A DNA stretch of 64,000 nucleotides from contig QCWI01000001.1 of the NCBI GenBank assembly GCA_003149635.1, positions 2,037 through 66,036 of the forward strand, given 5' to 3'. The notes beneath the pieces are model-generated. The model did no database searches and was not told the origin of the DNA. It saw only the letters and a program-made list of their open reading frames with translations. The stretch is from Fluviicola sp. XM-24bin1. GTDB taxonomy: Bacteria > Bacteroidota > Bacteroidia > Flavobacteriales_D > Crocinitomicaceae. Below are positions 6,231-13,055 of this stretch, one piece after another. The position numbers were made by a program, and so were the translations under genes. Every line of letters starts with the position of its first letter. Position 1 is the first letter of the stretch.

Positions 6231-6377
6231 AAACAAGTAAGCACAAATTTAACCCACATTCCGAAATAGACAAGCAGCGATCCGTTTTTGGTAAAACTGT
6301 CCCCAAACCGATTTAGGATTTCTGGAATCTTCGGCATTATTTTTGTCTTACAAGTCATTCTTACGTATCTTAGTTAT

Positions 6378-6857
6378 ATGCGAGTTCTCTCCAAAGCAAT
6401 AGTATTCTTCTGGGCAAGCACCATTTTGGTGGCTTCCACATGCTTTGGTGCAGATATACATTACTGCAAGGGAGAAGTGCAATCGTTTAGCATTTATGAC
6501 GTGGCAAAGCCATGTGATATGCACAAAAAACAAGCCGCTCAAAAGCCGAAAAAAGAACTCCCACCTTGCTGCAAAGCCAGAAAAATAGCCAAAGAAAAGG
6601 CATTGGAAGGAAAACCAGTGATCAAATACGGTAAATGCTGTTACAACGATCAGGTGGTGTTTAGAACAGATGGAGATACGCAACAAGCTATCGTCAATGT
6701 TAAAGCATTACAACTCGAAAAGTCAGATCATTTCTTAGGCGAATATTTAGCCTCAAGCTGGAACGATTTCGCTATCACGAACCCTCCGTTCCGAGGGCCG
6801 CCCGAAGCCATTTACAAGAACAATCTTCACATTTTCTTTCAGGTTTTTCTAATTTGA
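6378..6857 (+). CDS. HYC_CC_PP family protein
   Basis: A 159-residue small exported protein of the Bacteroidota family named after its invariant HYC, CC and PP motifs. All are visible: HYC at 28-30, CC at 64-65 and 87-88, and NPPFRGPPE at 136-143. Residues 1-24 form a signal peptide (MRVLSKAIVFFWASTILVAST). The cysteine pairs suggest metal or disulfide chemistry, but the family has no proven function; it is commonly seen beside copper or heavy-metal genes. The start at 6378 is preferred over an upstream in-frame ATG at 6288 because it gives a clean signal peptide. A TTTG-N20-TATCTTAG promoter-like element ends only four bases before the ATG. It is first in a run of same-strand copper-related genes. 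Confidence 0.8.
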   Translation: MRVLSKAIVFFWASTILVASTCFGADIHYCKGEVQSFSIYDVAKPCDMHKKQAAQKPKKELPPCCKARKIAKEKALEGKPVIKYGKCCYNDQVVFRTDGDTQQAIVNVKALQLEKSDHFLGEYLASSWNDFAITNPPFRGPPEAIYKNNLHIFFQVFLI

Positions 6858-6921
6858 TGCTTACTCCCACAACGTTGGGATTACAAGCAATTGAAGTTAA
6901 ATTATACAAAACCAAAAGAAT

Positions 6922-7269
6922 ATGTTAATCAAATCATTAGTGGTCTTTGTGGCCATCTTATCATTCAGCTTTGCACCGCAGGGCGACAAAAAAGAAAAAG
7001 CAACCTTCACTGTGTATGGAGTTTGTGGAATGTGTGAAACACGCATCGAAAAAGCAATCAATGAAATGGACGGAGTGCTCTGGTCAGATTGGGAATTGGA
7101 AACCCTTGAATTGACTGTAAAGTACGATCCATCCGTTGTTACATTGGAACAGATCAAAGAGAAAGCAGCAGAAGTGGGCCACGATACGGATGACGTACGT
7201 GCTACCGAGGAAGCGTATGAAAACCTTCACCCATGCTGTAAGTACGATCGACCTAAAGCGAAAAAATAA
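6922..7269 (+). CDS. Exported heavy-metal-associated (HMA) domain protein
   Basis: A 115-residue protein with a signal peptide (residues 1-18) and one HMA fold at about 26-92. The metal site is GVCGMCETRIE (Cys35, Cys38), a CxxC variant of the usual GMxCxxC; such sites bind Cu(I) or other soft metals with two cysteines. A second cysteine pair (Cys105-Cys106) lies in the C-terminal tail, so the protein has four thiols. It is likely a periplasmic metallochaperone that passes copper to the oxidases or MbnP proteins downstream. It is separated by 64 bp from the HYC_CC_PP gene and by 17 bp from the next gene. The copper role is inference from family and context. Confidence 0.85.
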   Translation: MLIKSLVVFVAILSFSFAPQGDKKEKATFTVYGVCGMCETRIEKAINEMDGVLWSDWELETLELTVKYDPSVVTLEQIKEKAAEVGHDTDDVRATEEAYENLHPCCKYDRPKAKK

Positions 7270-7286
7270 AATAACATACTAGAATT

Positions 7287-7964
7287 ATGAAAACTCTTCT
7301 ACTTTTTTTATCCGTTGTTGTTCTTAGTGGTGCCGTATCAGCTCAATCAACTTTCCAGTGGGATACAAACGATACAATTGAGACGAATCTTACTCCTAAT
7401 GTAACGGAGCAATATCCAATGTACCAATCGGTTGTAGGAAACGACACTGTTACTCTTGCGATAGAAGTTATCTATAACGACCTTCCGCAATCATGGGACG
7501 GAATGGTGTGCATTTTTGGGATATGTATGGGTCAAATTCCTCCTGTAGGTACCCAAGCAACAATGAGTCCAATTTATGGATCCAACCAAGGAATGATACG
7601 ATTAACGGTTAATCCTTACAACGGAACTGAAACGGCCAAATTGCAAGTCATGGTTTGGGATGTTGATTTTCCTAATGAAACAGACACGGCCACATTTTTA
7701 TTAAACACCACTCTTAGTACACCAGAGTTATTAGCAAGTAATGTTGAAATACGCCCAAACCCTGTTCAGGATGTACTTTCCATTGATTCGGACTACGATT
7801 TGAACAATGCGCAAATTATAAATACTACTGGTCAGGTAATCAGAAAATTCGAGCTCTCTAGTGTTCAGCAAGTACTTAACGTGGGAGATCTTCCAAAAGG
7901 AGTCTACACAGTTCGTTTGATAGGAGATGTAGGAACAGTTGACAAACGATTTGTGAAACTATGA
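7287..7964 (+). CDS. Small T9SS type A sorting-domain protein in copper locus
   Basis: A 225-residue secreted protein with signal peptide MKTLLLFLSVVVLSGAVSA and a beta-rich body of about 120 residues. The body has a short Cys/Met-rich segment, CIFGICMGQIPP, that could bind metal. A T9SS type A domain beginning IRPNPVQDVLSI and ending in KRFVKL closes the protein. No enzymatic motif is recognised. Its stop codon overlaps the start of the first multicopper-oxidase gene (ATGA at 7961), so it is translationally coupled to it. It may serve as a surface partner or subunit of the oxidase; this is inference only. Confidence 0.75.
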   Translation: MKTLLLFLSVVVLSGAVSAQSTFQWDTNDTIETNLTPNVTEQYPMYQSVVGNDTVTLAIEVIYNDLPQSWDGMVCIFGICMGQIPPVGTQATMSPIYGSNQGMIRLTVNPYNGTETAKLQVMVWDVDFPNETDTATFLLNTTLSTPELLASNVEIRPNPVQDVLSIDSDYDLNNAQIINTTGQVIRKFELSSVQQVLNVGDLPKGVYTVRLIGDVGTVDKRFVKL

Positions 7965-8815
7965 TGCGATGGATTTTTATGTTGTTTCTGCTATTAACTA
8001 CCAAGGCGGAGGCAGCTACTGTTAATACTTCGTTGTACATACTCAGGGATAGTATTCATTTTGATAATGGCACCTCCTTGCCCTACGCGACGTTCAACGC
8101 GACCAATTCGTACAACGCGACGAATGCTAGAATTGTGGTAGACCTTGGAGATCAATTGGATCTTTGGGTTTACAACTTCGATACGGACGTACACGAATTC
8201 CGTATTCAAGGGCAAACGAGCACGGTTTCTATTCCATCTGGAGATTCAGCACAGGTACTGTACAATTGCAATACCGAAGGTGTGTATATCTTCCACGACC
8301 CCATGAATTTTCCGGATAATGCTTCCGTTGGACTCTCTGGAATGCTGGTGGTGAAGAATACAACACATGCTGGTTTCTTCTGGAACATTAAAGAGCATCA
8401 AGTTGGTTACAACAGTACGGTCTTTACCGGCTCATCACCTGATTGGATGACTTATTATCCCGAACACTTTACGATAAATGGCATGAGTAACCCAAATATC
8501 AATAATGATCCAAGTGCACGAGTAGTGGGTAATGTCAACGACACGATTTACATCTACATGGCGAACACTGGTCAAAGTATTCACTCCATGCATTTGCACG
8601 GATATCATGCCACAATCGTCTATTCATCCAAAGATCCGTCGCACGCAGGTTGGTCGAAAGATTCCATGCCTATTTTCCCATCTGAAACTATGGTGTTGGA
8701 ATTGGTTCCTAACCAACCAGGTGAATATCCAGTACACGATCATAATTTGATAGGTACTACAGGAGGAAATCTATATCCCCAAGGAATGTTTACTACTTTA
8801 TTGATAGCACCATGA
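7961..8815 (+). CDS. Half-size multicopper oxidase, subunit without type-1 copper
   Basis: A 284-residue exported protein (signal peptide 1-18) made of two cupredoxin folds. Domain 1 (about 25-135) keeps only VHEFRIQG and FHDPMNF. Domain 2 (about 165-284) carries two HxH motifs of the multicopper oxidase type: HSMHLHG (His208, His211, His213) and HDH (259-261). The position normally occupied by the type-1 copper cysteine (HCH) is Asp260, so no type-1 site can form. No T9SS domain is present. Start and stop both overlap neighbours by ATGA. The next gene encodes the complementary half, with HLHG, HCH and the full type-1 ligand set. The pair could assemble one trinuclear copper centre. The alternative is a degenerate oxidase serving only as a structural copper binder. 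Confidence 0.8.
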   Translation: MMRWIFMLFLLLTTKAEAATVNTSLYILRDSIHFDNGTSLPYATFNATNSYNATNARIVVDLGDQLDLWVYNFDTDVHEFRIQGQTSTVSIPSGDSAQVLYNCNTEGVYIFHDPMNFPDNASVGLSGMLVVKNTTHAGFFWNIKEHQVGYNSTVFTGSSPDWMTYYPEHFTINGMSNPNINNDPSARVVGNVNDTIYIYMANTGQSIHSMHLHGYHATIVYSSKDPSHAGWSKDSMPIFPSETMVLELVPNQPGEYPVHDHNLIGTTGGNLYPQGMFTTLLIAP

Positions 8816-10017
8816 GCAAATTTAGAATGAGAATTACTCTTGCGCTTGCGCTCATTTTGGCAACCTCAATAGGAGGATTTGGTCAGATGGATACAACTGT
8901 CATGATCATTTCTAAGGTTGACTTTCAGGAACAGTATGAATTACACGATGGAAATTTAATCCACTTGATGGGGTACACACAAACGTTGAGTGCTCCTATC
9001 AATATTCCAGCACCTACTTTAATATTCGAAGAAGGAGACTCCGTCAATTTAAATATGTGGAATTTATCTCAAGGAGCCCCGCATACCATTCATTTGCATG
9101 GGTTGGACGTCAATCAGGAAAATGATGGTGTACCACATTTATCATTTGAAGTCGTTCATGATGATACCGGAAGTTATTATTTTGAAGCTCCACACCCGGG
9201 GACTTATTTGTATCATTGTCATGTAACTTCTGTACTACACGTTCAAGGTGGTATGTATGGTTTACTGATAGTAAAACCCAAAAGTGATCCAAATCTTACT
9301 TGGGAAAACGGTTATGCCTTCGATAGCGAGCATGCTTGGTTAATGTCGGAAGTAGATACTATTTGGCATCATGACTCAATAGTGAATCACCCCCATGATC
9401 CACAAGCGATGACTCATACCATTTTGGACTATCAACCACAGCATTTTGTTGTGAATGGAAAGTCCGAATCTCAGTTAAGTTCACAAGCCATTGTCGCAAG
9501 TGTAGGAGAGAAGGTATATATGCGTTTGGCAAATATTGGATACTATGGCAATCGGATAATATTCCCAGCTGGAATGAATGCAGAGGTGATTGCTTCTGAT
9601 GGACGACCAATACCAAATCCGTTTAATTCTGACACCGTTGAGGTGTATCCTGGAGAGCGGTTCGGAGTGATGTTGGAAACCAATGCGGAATTTACAGATG
9701 TGATCCAAGTGGATTATATAAATCTCAACACGCAAACTATAGAGAATACGCAAGAAGTTGATGTGACCATTTCCGGATTTATCGGACTAGATGAACTCGA
9801 AAATCAAGATTTACTTGTGTATCCGAATCCAGCAAATAACGAAGTTCAATTACCGCTTTCTGGTGAATGGGTGACCTTAGACCTCTCTGGTAGAGAGATT
9901 GCGCAGTTGAACTCAGGGAGCAACAATTACGATGTTAGCGGACTTGCAATCGGAACCTACATTTTAAGAAGTGTAGAGCGTCCTGATATGTCCGTCAAAA
10001 TAATGATTCAGCGATGA
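8812..10017 (+). CDS. Half-size multicopper oxidase with type-1 site and T9SS domain
   Basis: A 401-residue protein with signal peptide 1-25, two cupredoxin folds and a T9SS type A domain. Domain 1 has HTIHLHG (His91, His94, His96) and HCH (135-137), followed by His143 and Met148. This gives a complete type-1 set (His91, Cys136, His143, Met148) and two HxH motifs for a type-2/3 cluster. Domain 2 (about 205-310) has lost all copper histidines. The C-terminus (LLVYPNPANNEVQL to IMIQR) directs export by T9SS and surface attachment. Oxidases of this superfamily couple one-electron oxidation of phenols or metals to reduction of oxygen, or reduce nitrite in the two-domain relatives. It overlaps both neighbours by ATGA. 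Confidence 0.85.
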   Translation: MSKFRMRITLALALILATSIGGFGQMDTTVMIISKVDFQEQYELHDGNLIHLMGYTQTLSAPINIPAPTLIFEEGDSVNLNMWNLSQGAPHTIHLHGLDVNQENDGVPHLSFEVVHDDTGSYYFEAPHPGTYLYHCHVTSVLHVQGGMYGLLIVKPKSDPNLTWENGYAFDSEHAWLMSEVDTIWHHDSIVNHPHDPQAMTHTILDYQPQHFVVNGKSESQLSSQAIVASVGEKVYMRLANIGYYGNRIIFPAGMNAEVIASDGRPIPNPFNSDTVEVYPGERFGVMLETNAEFTDVIQVDYINLNTQTIENTQEVDVTISGFIGLDELENQDLLVYPNPANNEVQLPLSGEWVTLDLSGREIAQLNSGSNNYDVSGLAIGTYILRSVERPDMSVKIMIQR

Positions 10018-10994
10018 AATATAATTGGAAATATGGAATCTTAGTACTGTTATTGACAGGTTTCTCTTCAGCATATGCTCAGACAGATATCAATTTGAAA
10101 TTGTACCATCACGTTGACGGTGCTTCGTTTCAATACGGACAAGTGTACGAAATTGATGGACAGGCTGTTCGTTTCAGTCGTATGCAATACTACCTCAGTG
10201 GGTTTGAAATCACACACGATGGCGGGCAAACGACATCAATGCCTGATGCATACGTATTAGCAAGCGCTAACATTTCTGATTATACATTGGGACAGGAAAA
10301 CATCACCAATTTAGAGGGAATTTCCTTTGATTTAGGTGTGGATTCCGTTCGAAATGGAATGAATACGAGTGCTTGGCCTGCTGGGCATCCACTAGCTGCT
10401 CAAAATCCCTCCATGGATTGGAGTTGGCCCGATGGTTACTTTTTCTGGACAATCGACGGGAAGGTAGATAGCGATAATGATGGCGAACCCGATTTGAACT
10501 TTTCGTTGCACGGAATGGGCAACGATTTGCTCCGACCCGTCAATGGATTTAGTGGGTTGAACCTCTCTGGAAATGATGTTAAGGTCGAACTATATGTCAA
10601 TATTGCCGATTGGCTCCATGAAATTGAATTGCGATACGTGGGTGTGGCACACGACGGCCTGCATGACAACACCAATGTGGCGAATAACACGAACCCAGAA
10701 ACGGTGTTCACTTTGGATCTTCCGTTGTCAATTGAGGAATGGGAGAATCAAGAATCGAACATTTATGCGGATTACACCTTGCCGTATGCCCCTTCAATCT
10801 ATTACAATTTGGCATCTAAGGAGAACGTATCCATCACGGTAACAGACGCGGCAGGAAGAGTGGTTCTTGAGGCCGATGACCAACCCAGTGCAGGGAACTT
10901 TTTCGTTCGTAAAGAACTTCCCGACGGAACATATGTAATAACTTTTAACTCAAACCATAACTCTGATAAATTTCGATTTATCGTAAAAAATTAA
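10014..10994 (+). CDS. MbnP-like copper-binding protein 1 with divergent T9SS-like tail
   Basis: A 326-residue exported protein (signal peptide 1-23, ending AYAQ). The body matches the MbnP family: an N-terminal beta strand region with FSRMQYYLSGFEITHDGG, then the Trp-rich core MDWSWPDGYFFW (Trp136, 138, 145) and several histidines. MbnP proteins bind Cu(I) at a site that needs a tryptophan converted to kynurenine by MbnH, a di-heme enzyme; an MbnH-like gene lies at 12057. Unusual here is an acidic DxDxDG loop at 148-160 that resembles a calcium loop. The C-terminal beta domain ends in GTYVITF...KFRFIVKN, like a T9SS tail but without the usual YPNP start. It overlaps the oxidase gene by ATGA and is about 60% identical to its neighbour. 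Confidence 0.8.
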   Translation: MKYNWKYGILVLLLTGFSSAYAQTDINLKLYHHVDGASFQYGQVYEIDGQAVRFSRMQYYLSGFEITHDGGQTTSMPDAYVLASANISDYTLGQENITNLEGISFDLGVDSVRNGMNTSAWPAGHPLAAQNPSMDWSWPDGYFFWTIDGKVDSDNDGEPDLNFSLHGMGNDLLRPVNGFSGLNLSGNDVKVELYVNIADWLHEIELRYVGVAHDGLHDNTNVANNTNPETVFTLDLPLSIEEWENQESNIYADYTLPYAPSIYYNLASKENVSITVTDAAGRVVLEADDQPSAGNFFVRKELPDGTYVITFNSNHNSDKFRFIVKN

Positions 10995-11007: not shown

Positions 11008-11985
11008 ATGAAAACGAAAAAATTACTTTTAAGTTTAATCCTTACTGGAGCAGGATTTTCGGTGCATGCGCAGACCGATATCAACCTAGCATTGAACCAC
11101 CAATTCAACGGTGCTTCGTTCTCTTACGGAACCACATATGATCTGAACGGAACGGCGGTTTCATTGTCACGTGTTCAATACTACATGTGTGGATTTGAAA
11201 TGACGCACGACGGTGGACAAACGACTTCCATGCCGGACGCTTACGTATTGGCAAGTGGAAACGTATCCAACTACACGTTAGGATCAGAAAACATCACGAG
11301 CTTGGAAGGATTCTCTTTTGATTTGGGAGTGGACGCGGCACGCAACGGAATGGGAACACAGTCTTGGCCTGCAGGTCACCCGTTAGCGGCACAATCTCCT
11401 TCAATGGATTGGAGCTGGCCAGGTGGATACTTCTTCTGGGTATTGGACGGTGATGTAGATACAGATGCCGACGGTACACCAGATCAAGCTTTTTCACTAC
11501 GCGGATTGGGAGATGTACTTCTAACTGATGTATCTGCTTTCTCTGGAATTAACCTCTCAGGAAACGCGATTACGATCGCAATGGATGTGAATGTTGCAGA
11601 CTGGTTGCAAAACATCGATTTGGCAACGGTATTCTCTCAGCACGATGCCGGGGCAAACAACCAATTGATTGGAACGAACACCAACAACGAAACGGTATTT
11701 ACTTTGAGCGCTTCATTGAGTACAGAAGAGTTGACATTGGAAGAAAGTCATATCTATGCAGATTACCAAATGGCTTATGCACCTACAATCTACTACGATT
11801 TGGCAACAGCTAACGAAGTAGATATTACGGTTGTTGATATGACAGGAGCGGTAGTTTTGGAGGCGAAGCAACAGAATCCGGAAGGAAACTACTTCATCCG
11901 TAAAGAATTACCAGACGGAACATACTTGATCAACTTCACGAATGGAGAGATCAACGAGCAGTTCCGCTTTGTAGTGAAAAACTAA
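11008..11985 (+). CDS. MbnP-like copper-binding protein 2, tandem paralogue
   Basis: A 325-residue tandem copy of the preceding gene, roughly 60% identical over the whole length, separated by 13 bp. It keeps the signal peptide, the THDGGQTTSMPDAY block, the MDWSWPGGYFFW core, the DGDVDTDADGTPD calcium-loop-like insert and the T9SS-like tail ending EQFRFVVKN. Differences that may matter are loss of several histidines found in copy 1 (LHGMG to LRGLG, VAHDGLHD to SQHDAG) and a lone Cys in YYMCGF. The two copies may therefore have different metal affinities. Duplication followed by divergence is the simplest history. Confidence 0.8.
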   Translation: MKTKKLLLSLILTGAGFSVHAQTDINLALNHQFNGASFSYGTTYDLNGTAVSLSRVQYYMCGFEMTHDGGQTTSMPDAYVLASGNVSNYTLGSENITSLEGFSFDLGVDAARNGMGTQSWPAGHPLAAQSPSMDWSWPGGYFFWVLDGDVDTDADGTPDQAFSLRGLGDVLLTDVSAFSGINLSGNAITIAMDVNVADWLQNIDLATVFSQHDAGANNQLIGTNTNNETVFTLSASLSTEELTLEESHIYADYQMAYAPTIYYDLATANEVDITVVDMTGAVVLEAKQQNPEGNYFIRKELPDGTYLINFTNGEINEQFRFVVKN

Positions 11986-12056: not shown

Positions 12057-13055
12057 GTGAAAACCTTTCTTTACATAGGACTTTTTGTAACAACAGCCTT
12101 TGTTCTAATTCGATGCGCTAGCGCTGGGATGTCAGAACCGACTGGGGCTCTGAGTCGCGAGCATGCATTTGAATTGGATTCAACCGATTATTATCGTGTG
12201 GAACTTGGAAAACACCTGTTCTACGACCCAATTCTTTCACGTGATTCGACAATCTCCTGTGCGACCTGTCACAAGCAAGAATTGGCATTTACGGATGGAT
12301 TGCAGAAAAGTGTCGGAATTCGGAACCGAATGGTAACGCGGAATTCACCTACCTTATCCAACGTTGGTAATCGTACGATGTTCCTATTGGACGGCGTAAA
12401 TCCATCGTTGGAATCACAGGTTGGCGTGCCGATTCAGGAACACAACGAGTTCGATTTTCACGTATTGTTGGTAATCGATCGGATTCAGAACAGCCCGAAA
12501 TACGTCGCGATGGCCGAAAAAGCCTACAATACGTCAGAAATTACAGAGTTCATTCTGAAGAATTCCATTGCCACCTTCGAAAGAACGTTGATCAGCGATA
12601 ATTCTCCCTACGACAAGTTCCTTGACGGAAACTATGCCGCTTTGGACAATCGTCAGAAGAAAGGAATGGAGCTTTTTTTCGAGACGCTTTACTGCTCAAA
12701 ATGCCATTCCGGCCCCGATTTTACTGAAGATCGTCTCACCAACAATGGTCTGTACACAGCTTACGCCGATTCAGGTCGCATGCGATTGACAGAAGCGGAA
12801 GCCGATCGTGCTATTTTCAAAGTACCAACACTCCGAAATGTCGCGAAAACGGCGCCCTATATGCATGATGGAAGCATCGCAACGTTGGAAGAGGTCATTA
12901 AACACTATGAATCGGGTGGTCATCCGCATCCCGGAAAAGGAGAAGAAATCGTTCCTTTCGAACTTACCGCAGAAGAACGCCAAAACCTTATTCGCTTTCT
13001 GGAAGCACTTACGGATGAAGATTTTTTGACGAATCCAGCATTTCGAGTGGACTGA
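12057..13055 (+). CDS. Di-heme cytochrome c peroxidase / MauG-MbnH family protein
   Basis: A 332-residue periplasmic di-heme protein. Two heme-binding motifs are present: CATCH (68-72) and CSKCH (213-217). The conserved C-terminal KVPTLRNVAKTAPYMHDG block contributes distal residues. The N-terminus is hydrophobic and ends in LIRC, a possible lipobox (Cys20). The family includes hydrogen-peroxide-reducing CcpA and MauG/MbnH enzymes that oxidise tryptophan in a partner protein. The position directly after two MbnP-like genes argues for the MbnH role, in which a tryptophan of MbnP becomes kynurenine to build a copper site. A GTG start is used; no nearer ATG keeps the leader segment. Distinguishing MbnH from CcpA needs structural comparison. 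Confidence 0.85.
   Translation: MKTFLYIGLFVTTAFVLIRCASAGMSEPTGALSREHAFELDSTDYYRVELGKHLFYDPILSRDSTISCATCHKQELAFTDGLQKSVGIRNRMVTRNSPTLSNVGNRTMFLLDGVNPSLESQVGVPIQEHNEFDFHVLLVIDRIQNSPKYVAMAEKAYNTSEITEFILKNSIATFERTLISDNSPYDKFLDGNYAALDNRQKKGMELFFETLYCSKCHSGPDFTEDRLTNNGLYTAYADSGRMRLTEAEADRAIFKVPTLRNVAKTAPYMHDGSIATLEEVIKHYESGGHPHPGKGEEIVPFELTAEERQNLIRFLEALTDEDFLTNPAFRVD

Follow-up and report, generated by a model that had tools for sequence, protein, structure and literature searches.

Known two-domain oxidases and the P1/P2 locus

Two-domain multicopper oxidases are regarded as intermediates on the way from single cupredoxins to the enzymes with three and six domains. Type C members, such as 3g5w of Nitrosomonas europaea and the metagenomic two-domain laccase 2zwn, carry two cupredoxin domains per chain, with a type-1 site and an HCH motif in domain 1 and an HxH and an HDH motif in domain 2. 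All four HxH motifs are located in one chain, which forms a homotrimer. In ceruloplasmin, one trinuclear centre is present at one domain interface and the other interfaces are degenerate, a situation to which that of the proteins described below was likened. The type-2 site of the copper nitrite reductase NirK has three His ligands, and in heterodimeric fungal laccases the large subunit contains all the copper sites and the small subunit none. A passage in PMC13151041 describes a trinuclear cluster between protomers as normal for two-domain oxidases, which it presents as homotrimers of three units. The locus analyzed here lies in a stretch of 64,000 nucleotides from Fluviicola sp. XM-24bin1 (contig QCWI01000001.1; hereafter, the window), in which two overlapping genes, P1 and P2, encode proteins with two HxH motifs each. 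On the basis of conservation, gene pairing and a predicted fold, P1 and P2 very probably constitute an obligate heteromeric multicopper oxidase, the two proteins sharing a single trinuclear centre where they meet.

Motifs of the gene pair

The features of the pair are listed below, with counts referring to a set of 117 homologous pairs defined in the next section.

7961..8815, + strand: P1, half-oxidase A, 284 amino acids; two cupredoxin domains, no type IX secretion system (T9SS) tail
8591..8602, + strand: HLHG of P1 (residues 211-214), first cluster motif of P1 domain 2; H211, H213 and G214 each in 117/117
8735..8743, + strand: HDH of P1 (residues 259-261), second cluster motif; H259 and H261 each in 117/117
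8812..8815, + strand: ATGA start-stop overlap of the P1 stop and the P2 start; a 4-base overlap in 77/117
8812..10017, + strand: P2, half-oxidase B, 401 amino acids; two cupredoxin domains and a T9SS tail
9082..9102, + strand: His91 (type 1) and HLHG (residues 94-97) of P2; every ligand in 117/117
9214..9255, + strand: HCH (residues 135-137) of P2, with Cys136, His143 and Met148 completing the type-1 site; every ligand in 117/117
9817..10014, + strand: T9SS sorting tail of P2 (residues 336-401), Pfam PF18962; PNP-like tail motif in 116/117

The sequence-only reading of this stretch had assigned HLHG and HDH to P1, with Asp in place of the type-1 Cys, and HLHG, HCH and a complete type-1 set to P2. 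All of these positions were exact on recheck, with Asp260 occupying the type-1 Cys position of P1, and the motif observation therefore stands. The gene overlap that it had described was present, and its restriction of the T9SS tail to the second protein agreed with Pfam, which matched Por_Secre_tail in P2 (residues 336-391) and not in P1. The other Pfam matches were Cu-oxidase_2 in P1 (170-263) and Cu-oxidase_3 (64-158) and Cu-oxidase (203-292) in P2. Together, the Pfam and NCBIfam matches of both proteins indicated a general multicopper oxidase only. Judged by eye, P1 carries a Sec-type signal peptide, and P2 carries a signal peptide as well.

Conservation of the copper ligands

A total of 212 loci were gathered; in 203, a count in which some loci recur, P1 and P2 occupied separate frames. 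The other nine comprised L027, L156, L176 and L198, in which a gene lies at or close to the edge of the contig or of the retrieved sequence; L091, with a merged frame; L123 and L157, with an undivided protein; L153, with both genes broken; and L155, with P2 alone. Both proteins were near full length in 196 pairs, from which 117 pairs at <90% identity were obtained for the conservation analysis.

In each of the 117 pairs, H211, H213, H259 and H261 of P1 and H91, H94, H96, H135, C136, H137, H143 and M148 of P2 were invariant, and the HxH motifs were divided two and two between the proteins. This half-site pattern is beyond chance. Residue 260 of P1 was D in 87 pairs, N in 26, A in 3 and E in 1, and Cys in none. 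The C-terminus of P1 fell 21-22 residues past the HxHN motif in every pair. The earlier claim that each protein also has one cupredoxin domain lacking the usual sites held for the ligand-equivalent positions of P1 domain 1 and P2 domain 2, which were not kept as His or Cys, except for P1 His78, retained in 111/117 pairs. Further invariant residues were His216, Lys233 and Asn262 in P1 and Asp99, Asp263, Arg265 and Glu282 in P2. Neither His78, in the dead domain, nor His216, two residues past HLHG and kept in 117/117 pairs, had an obvious role.

Decay of both genes toward loss, leaving no working centre, would agree with the absence of half the sites from each gene and with genome G554 (L153, C3:214000-220500), in which P1 and P2 were both interrupted by many stops. 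The stops in L153 represent either joint decay of the pair or sequencing error. However, twelve ligands were invariant over 117 divergent pairs; thus, P1/P2 cannot be a product of decay, an explanation to which practically no credence is given.

Comparison with known oxidase classes

As in type C oxidases, each chain of the pair has two cupredoxin domains, and end-to-end alignment was obtained either to 3g5w or between P1 and P2. A type-1 site restricted to the N-terminal domain was found in P2 (117/117) and not in P1, which has no Cys there. A chain with all four HxH motifs was absent from all 117 pairs; each protein has two, and the predicted interface is one between unlike proteins. Because no single chain holds all four motifs, P1/P2 are not plain type C members. 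The pair would nevertheless operate in the manner of a type C two-domain oxidase.

NirK shares the two-domain fold and the type-1 site in domain 1, and its profile TIGR02376 weakly matched P1 (29.3 bits) and P2 (68.6 bits) against a cut-off of 296.3. The identity of either protein as NirK was rejected because the full eight-His set is kept, unlike the three-His type-2 site, and because the scores were far below the cut-off. Three-domain laccases, CopA and CueO have three domains and four motifs in one chain, unlike P1 and P2, and the scores against their profiles were also far below the cut-offs, the best being TIGR01480 with 72.2 bits against 478.95, while CueO gave 47.2 against 525. The four docked P1-P2 domains align to the six-domain oxidases (ceruloplasmin and Mnx; factors V and VIII share the fold), but those are single chains of six domains, whereas P1/P2 are four domains in two chains, and only the arrangement of the docked model resembles the ring. 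Heterodimeric fungal laccases likewise consist of two different polypeptides, but in P1/P2 each subunit brings half of the cluster.

Pairing and distribution of P1 and P2

Among the loci of the family (L001-L031 without the duplicate L002, n = 30), P2 adjoined P1 in 29, and L027 stopped within P1. Genome contigs were then searched with P1 alone (alignment A1), and the best 80 of 229 relatives were analyzed; P2 was immediately downstream of P1 in 80/80. In these 80 loci, P2 was cut by the contig end in L034 and L037, and P1 was cut in L110. Their record titles included Flavobacteriales, Crocinitomicaceae, Saprospirales, Cytophagales, Sphingobacteriaceae and one Ignavibacteriae metagenome-assembled genome. 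No genuine fusion of the two genes was found in the 80 loci. The sole candidate, L091, has a single open frame over both genes; it was dismissed, since the terminal part of P1 is out of frame in this locus, indicating a reading-frame disruption.

The search for P1 (E <=1e-10) and that for P2 (E <=1e-30) listed identical sets of 33 among 150 family genomes. As one of these, G052, was listed through an undivided protein, the pair was present in 32 family genomes. In 349 genomes of the order, P1 was found in 95 and P2 in 98 at 1e-30; all 95 genomes with P1 also had P2, and 95 of the 98 with P2 also had P1. The three P2 genomes without P1 were G052, with its undivided protein; G751, in which P2 starts at contig base 1; and G646, in which P2 stands alone. 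In G618, G680 and G707, the P1 and P2 matches were on different contigs, and in G591 a stop was located inside P1 with P2 intact. Genomes with several copies carried pairs, namely, three P1 and three P2 in G018 and in G612, and two of each in G003; in G554 the two genes were interrupted together. In a wider draw from the phylum, with scoring limited to six candidates per genome and E 1e-20, P1 was found in 1/395 genomes, the window's own. Thus, the pair is common in the order and rare in that draw. Overall, the two genes are neighbours in many members of the Bacteroidota. Co-occurrence was near absolute in both directions, which excludes that each half occurs alone as often as together.

Predicted assembly

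The fold was predicted for the homologous locus L084, whose genes are in frame; the intervening TAA was read as Gly, giving one linked chain of 595 residues. The alignment contained 5 linked rows, 25 P1 rows and 25 P2 rows. The model had a mean predicted local distance difference test (pLDDT) score of 90.8 and a predicted template modeling (pTM) score of 0.91. By our own position count in the L084 model, the ten-residue blocks with the four motifs had pLDDT values of 83-94 and the linker approximately 54-62. As a control, P1 was linked in the same manner to the product of the adjacent upstream gene, P0, taken from L057.

7287..7964, + strand: P0, T9SS-tailed protein with a conserved Cys pair, a frequent neighbour; upstream of the pair in 124/186 loci

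The P0-P1 control gave a pLDDT of 87.8 and a pTM of 0.60 from an alignment of 30 rows, shallower than that of P1-P2; its parts were predicted to be well folded, with no confidence in their mutual position. The confident predicted docking of P1 on P2 contrasted with this failing control.

The first 20 Foldseek matches of the P1-P2 model were ceruloplasmin, factors V and VIII and Mnx oxidase, with 694-835 alignment columns and query-side template modeling scores (TMq) of 0.57-0.68. As one protein alone (326/595 residues) gives at most approximately 0.55, the better matches need both proteins superposed, if loosely. The structures 2zwn and 3g5w matched one unit of the model (321-325 columns, target-side score TMt 0.70-0.72). 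The predicted docking of P1 and P2 therefore resembles ceruloplasmin-type rings.

A larger assembly, in which another P1 or P2, or P0, occupies the third place of a six-domain ring, would extend the heteromeric oxidase rather than replace it. The predicted match of the four docked domains to part of six-domain rings, the three units that the passage in PMC13151041 gives for homotrimeric relatives, and the frequent presence of P0 upstream are consistent with a third partner. However, P0 was tried as the third subunit and rejected, as the P0-P1 fold showed no confident docking; P0 was also not upstream in 62/186 loci, and a second P1 or P2 would leave a half-site unpaired. A third partner is accordingly regarded as possible but somewhat doubtful. 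In P0 itself, the invariant features were the Cys75-Cys80 pair (each Cys in 51/51) and Trp70, and no named Pfam family was matched except the sorting tail.

It may alternatively be proposed that P1 and P2 work separately and are merely co-transcribed, P2 as a blue-copper carrier or NirK-like enzyme and P1 as a copper binder made of like subunits. The weak match of P2 to the copper nitrite reductase profile (68.6 bits vs 296.3) and the P2 gene of G646 without an adjacent P1 would fit such roles. However, all eight cluster His are kept rather than three as at the NirK type-2 site, and near-perfect co-occurrence, complementary loss and confident docking against the failing control all speak for joint function; separate roles are therefore given a very slight chance.

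Proposed mechanism and its weighing

As each gene appears to encode half of the copper centre, the active site would be complete only where P1 meets P2. In the proposed mechanism, domain 1 of P2 would dock on domain 2 of P1 in the way that adjacent protomers of homotrimeric two-domain oxidases do, and eight His would converge at the interface and hold one trinuclear copper cluster. Substrate electrons may enter at the type-1 copper of P2 and travel along the His-Cys-His path, and O2 would be reduced to water at the shared cluster. P1, which has no T9SS tail, would probably be exported in complex with the tailed P2; for the Tat (twin-arginine translocation) pathway, a natural hitchhiker complex is known (PMC4273604). 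The analysis showed the motifs, their invariance, the gene pairing, the paralogy and a predicted docking, and from there we infer copper occupancy, oxidase activity, substrate, stoichiometry and joint export with P2 through T9SS. The meeting of both halves in one working copper centre is, as a prediction-based account, clearly the best explanation. The sequence-only proposal of two polypeptides assembling across their interface was thus supported by co-occurrence, the confident linked fold, the ring-like match and the failing control.

Several points weigh against this explanation. In G646 (L155, C127:14000-19500), which has P2, neither the sequence upstream of it nor, at 1e-30, the genome as a whole yielded a P1, and G734 has an interrupted second P1 copy without a P2 match, besides an intact P1 adjoining P2. 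The fold was made from the homologue L084 as one linked chain. The Foldseek match to six-domain rings was loose, with a root mean square deviation of 7.1-9.1 A. Mean-field direct coupling analysis of the 117 pairs (effective number 95) placed 180 inter-protein pairs in the top 400, against 204 expected, and gave no clear interface signal. A three-unit ring cannot alternate two kinds of protomer evenly, so any stoichiometry of P1/P2 would be tentative. In the domain tree described below, P2 domain 1 did not form one clade (2/14 rows outside, at weak forks), and many forks were unresolved. Copper, activity and cluster geometry of P1/P2 are predictions from the genes and the model. As for L155 of G646, it was the one clear exception to pairing, and a misassembly is possible.

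Relationship to type C oxidases and origin

The best solved sequence matches of both P1 and P2 were 3g5w and 2zwn. Domain 2 of P1 aligned with domain 2 of these structures, HDH motif included, and P2 aligned with both of their domains but lacked the second-domain ligands. The P1 profile aligned with 3g5w over 257 of its 286 positions (27-283), and the P1 and P2 profiles aligned with each other end to end (262 columns, 99.3%). It follows from these end-to-end alignments that each protein retains the whole two-domain architecture, in which one half-site is live and the other dead. By this profile evidence, P1 and P2 were shown to be paralogues over their full length, with type C two-domain multicopper oxidases as relatives.

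An undivided relative was found in G052 (L123:3894-5195) as one protein of 434 amino acids, with a Tat-like signal as judged by eye. Its domain 1 contains HTIHWHG, HCH and a type-1 site, and its domain 2 contains HNLHLHG and HDH; the best solved match was 2zwn (3.1e-57), with both domains covered. Two more undivided proteins, in L092 (12502-13783) and in L157 of G670, are located in loci or genomes that also hold a split pair. An undivided relative was not found at 1e-40 in 198 genomes of the class, in a search without a positive control. Near the undivided oxidase, a copper-type P-ATPase with Cys-rich repeats was observed (L123:6380-9082).

A domain tree was constructed from 62 domain sequences of 14 loci and three undivided proteins, with few alignment columns. 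All domain 2 rows grouped together (support 99/99), and the domains 2 of P1 and P2 were sisters relative to the undivided domain 2 (90/79). The stems of the dead domains were long (2.64 for P1 domain 1 and 1.34 for P2 domain 2), and those of the live domains were short (0.56 for P1 domain 2; 0.41 for 12/14 rows of P2 domain 1), as expected from duplication with complementary loss. Most likely, both genes arose by tandem duplication of one gene for a type C-like oxidase with two domains. In P2, domain 1 would have retained the type-1 site together with two of the four HxH motifs, while the domain 2 ligands disappeared; in P1, domain 2 would have retained the remaining two HxH motifs, while those of domain 1 disappeared. 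The tree supports the order of events only moderately. The sequence-only view of an oxidase split in two thus stands insofar as the halves are paired and docked in the model, but the pair is not one enzyme cut in two, and a duplicated type C gene is the most likely source.

Neighbouring genes

The genes downstream of the pair were as follows, with counts here and below for loci with enough flanking sequence.

10014-10994 and 11008-11985, + strand: two MbnP-family proteins (Pfam/NCBIfam); MbnP near the pair in 11/63 loci
12057-13055, + strand: MbnH-family di-haem enzyme (Pfam/NCBIfam); MbnH near the pair in 10/63 loci

Both tandem MbnP-family proteins carry a T9SS tail, and the MbnH-family enzyme follows them. 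Just upstream, at 6288-7269, an HYC_CC_PP protein and an HMA (CopZ-like) protein with a Cys-rich end were observed, which suggests a copper-related cluster. HMA was near the pair in 5/65 loci and HYC_CC_PP in 5/65. MbnP and MbnH are therefore not general partners of P1/P2.

This copper-flavoured set in the window would suit an alternative in which P1 and P2 associate but their His cluster serves as a store or buffer for copper outside the cell, or handles copper within the operon, without O2 reduction. However, the type-1 site and the His-Cys-His link, needless for storage, were invariant in 117/117 pairs, and copper neighbours were present in only 5/65 (HMA) to 11/63 (MbnP) loci, so that a storage role is considered unlikely. 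A copper-operon function was also rejected as a general rule; as copper neighbours are rare across loci, copper handling is a local hint rather than a rule.

Novelty and significance

In the literature covered, with most subscription papers outside its scope, no multicopper oxidase with a trinuclear cluster common to two different gene products was found. The earlier remark that the arrangement was not known to its author as a described one applies to the unlike protomers from two genes; a trinuclear centre between protomers, as the passage in PMC13151041 states, is already normal for two-domain oxidases. The new element is that the protomers sharing the centre come from two different genes, whereas known enzymes use identical copies. 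With complementary half-site loss after duplication, the metal cluster would now be dependent on two genes. It is somewhat more probable than not that the pair represents a widespread, overlooked class of heteromeric multicopper oxidases. In such a class, a single trinuclear cluster would form nowhere but between two different gene products, complementary loss after duplication would have fixed this state in a ratchet-like obligate dependence, and the tailed partner would carry the tailless one to the cell surface through T9SS. P1/P2 would be another exit from the homotrimer, with duplication and complementary half-site loss in place of fusion, and a clean natural case of heteromers turning obligatory. 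Moreover, should P1 depend on P2 to arrive at the surface, the two proteins would test the transport of assembled complexes by T9SS.

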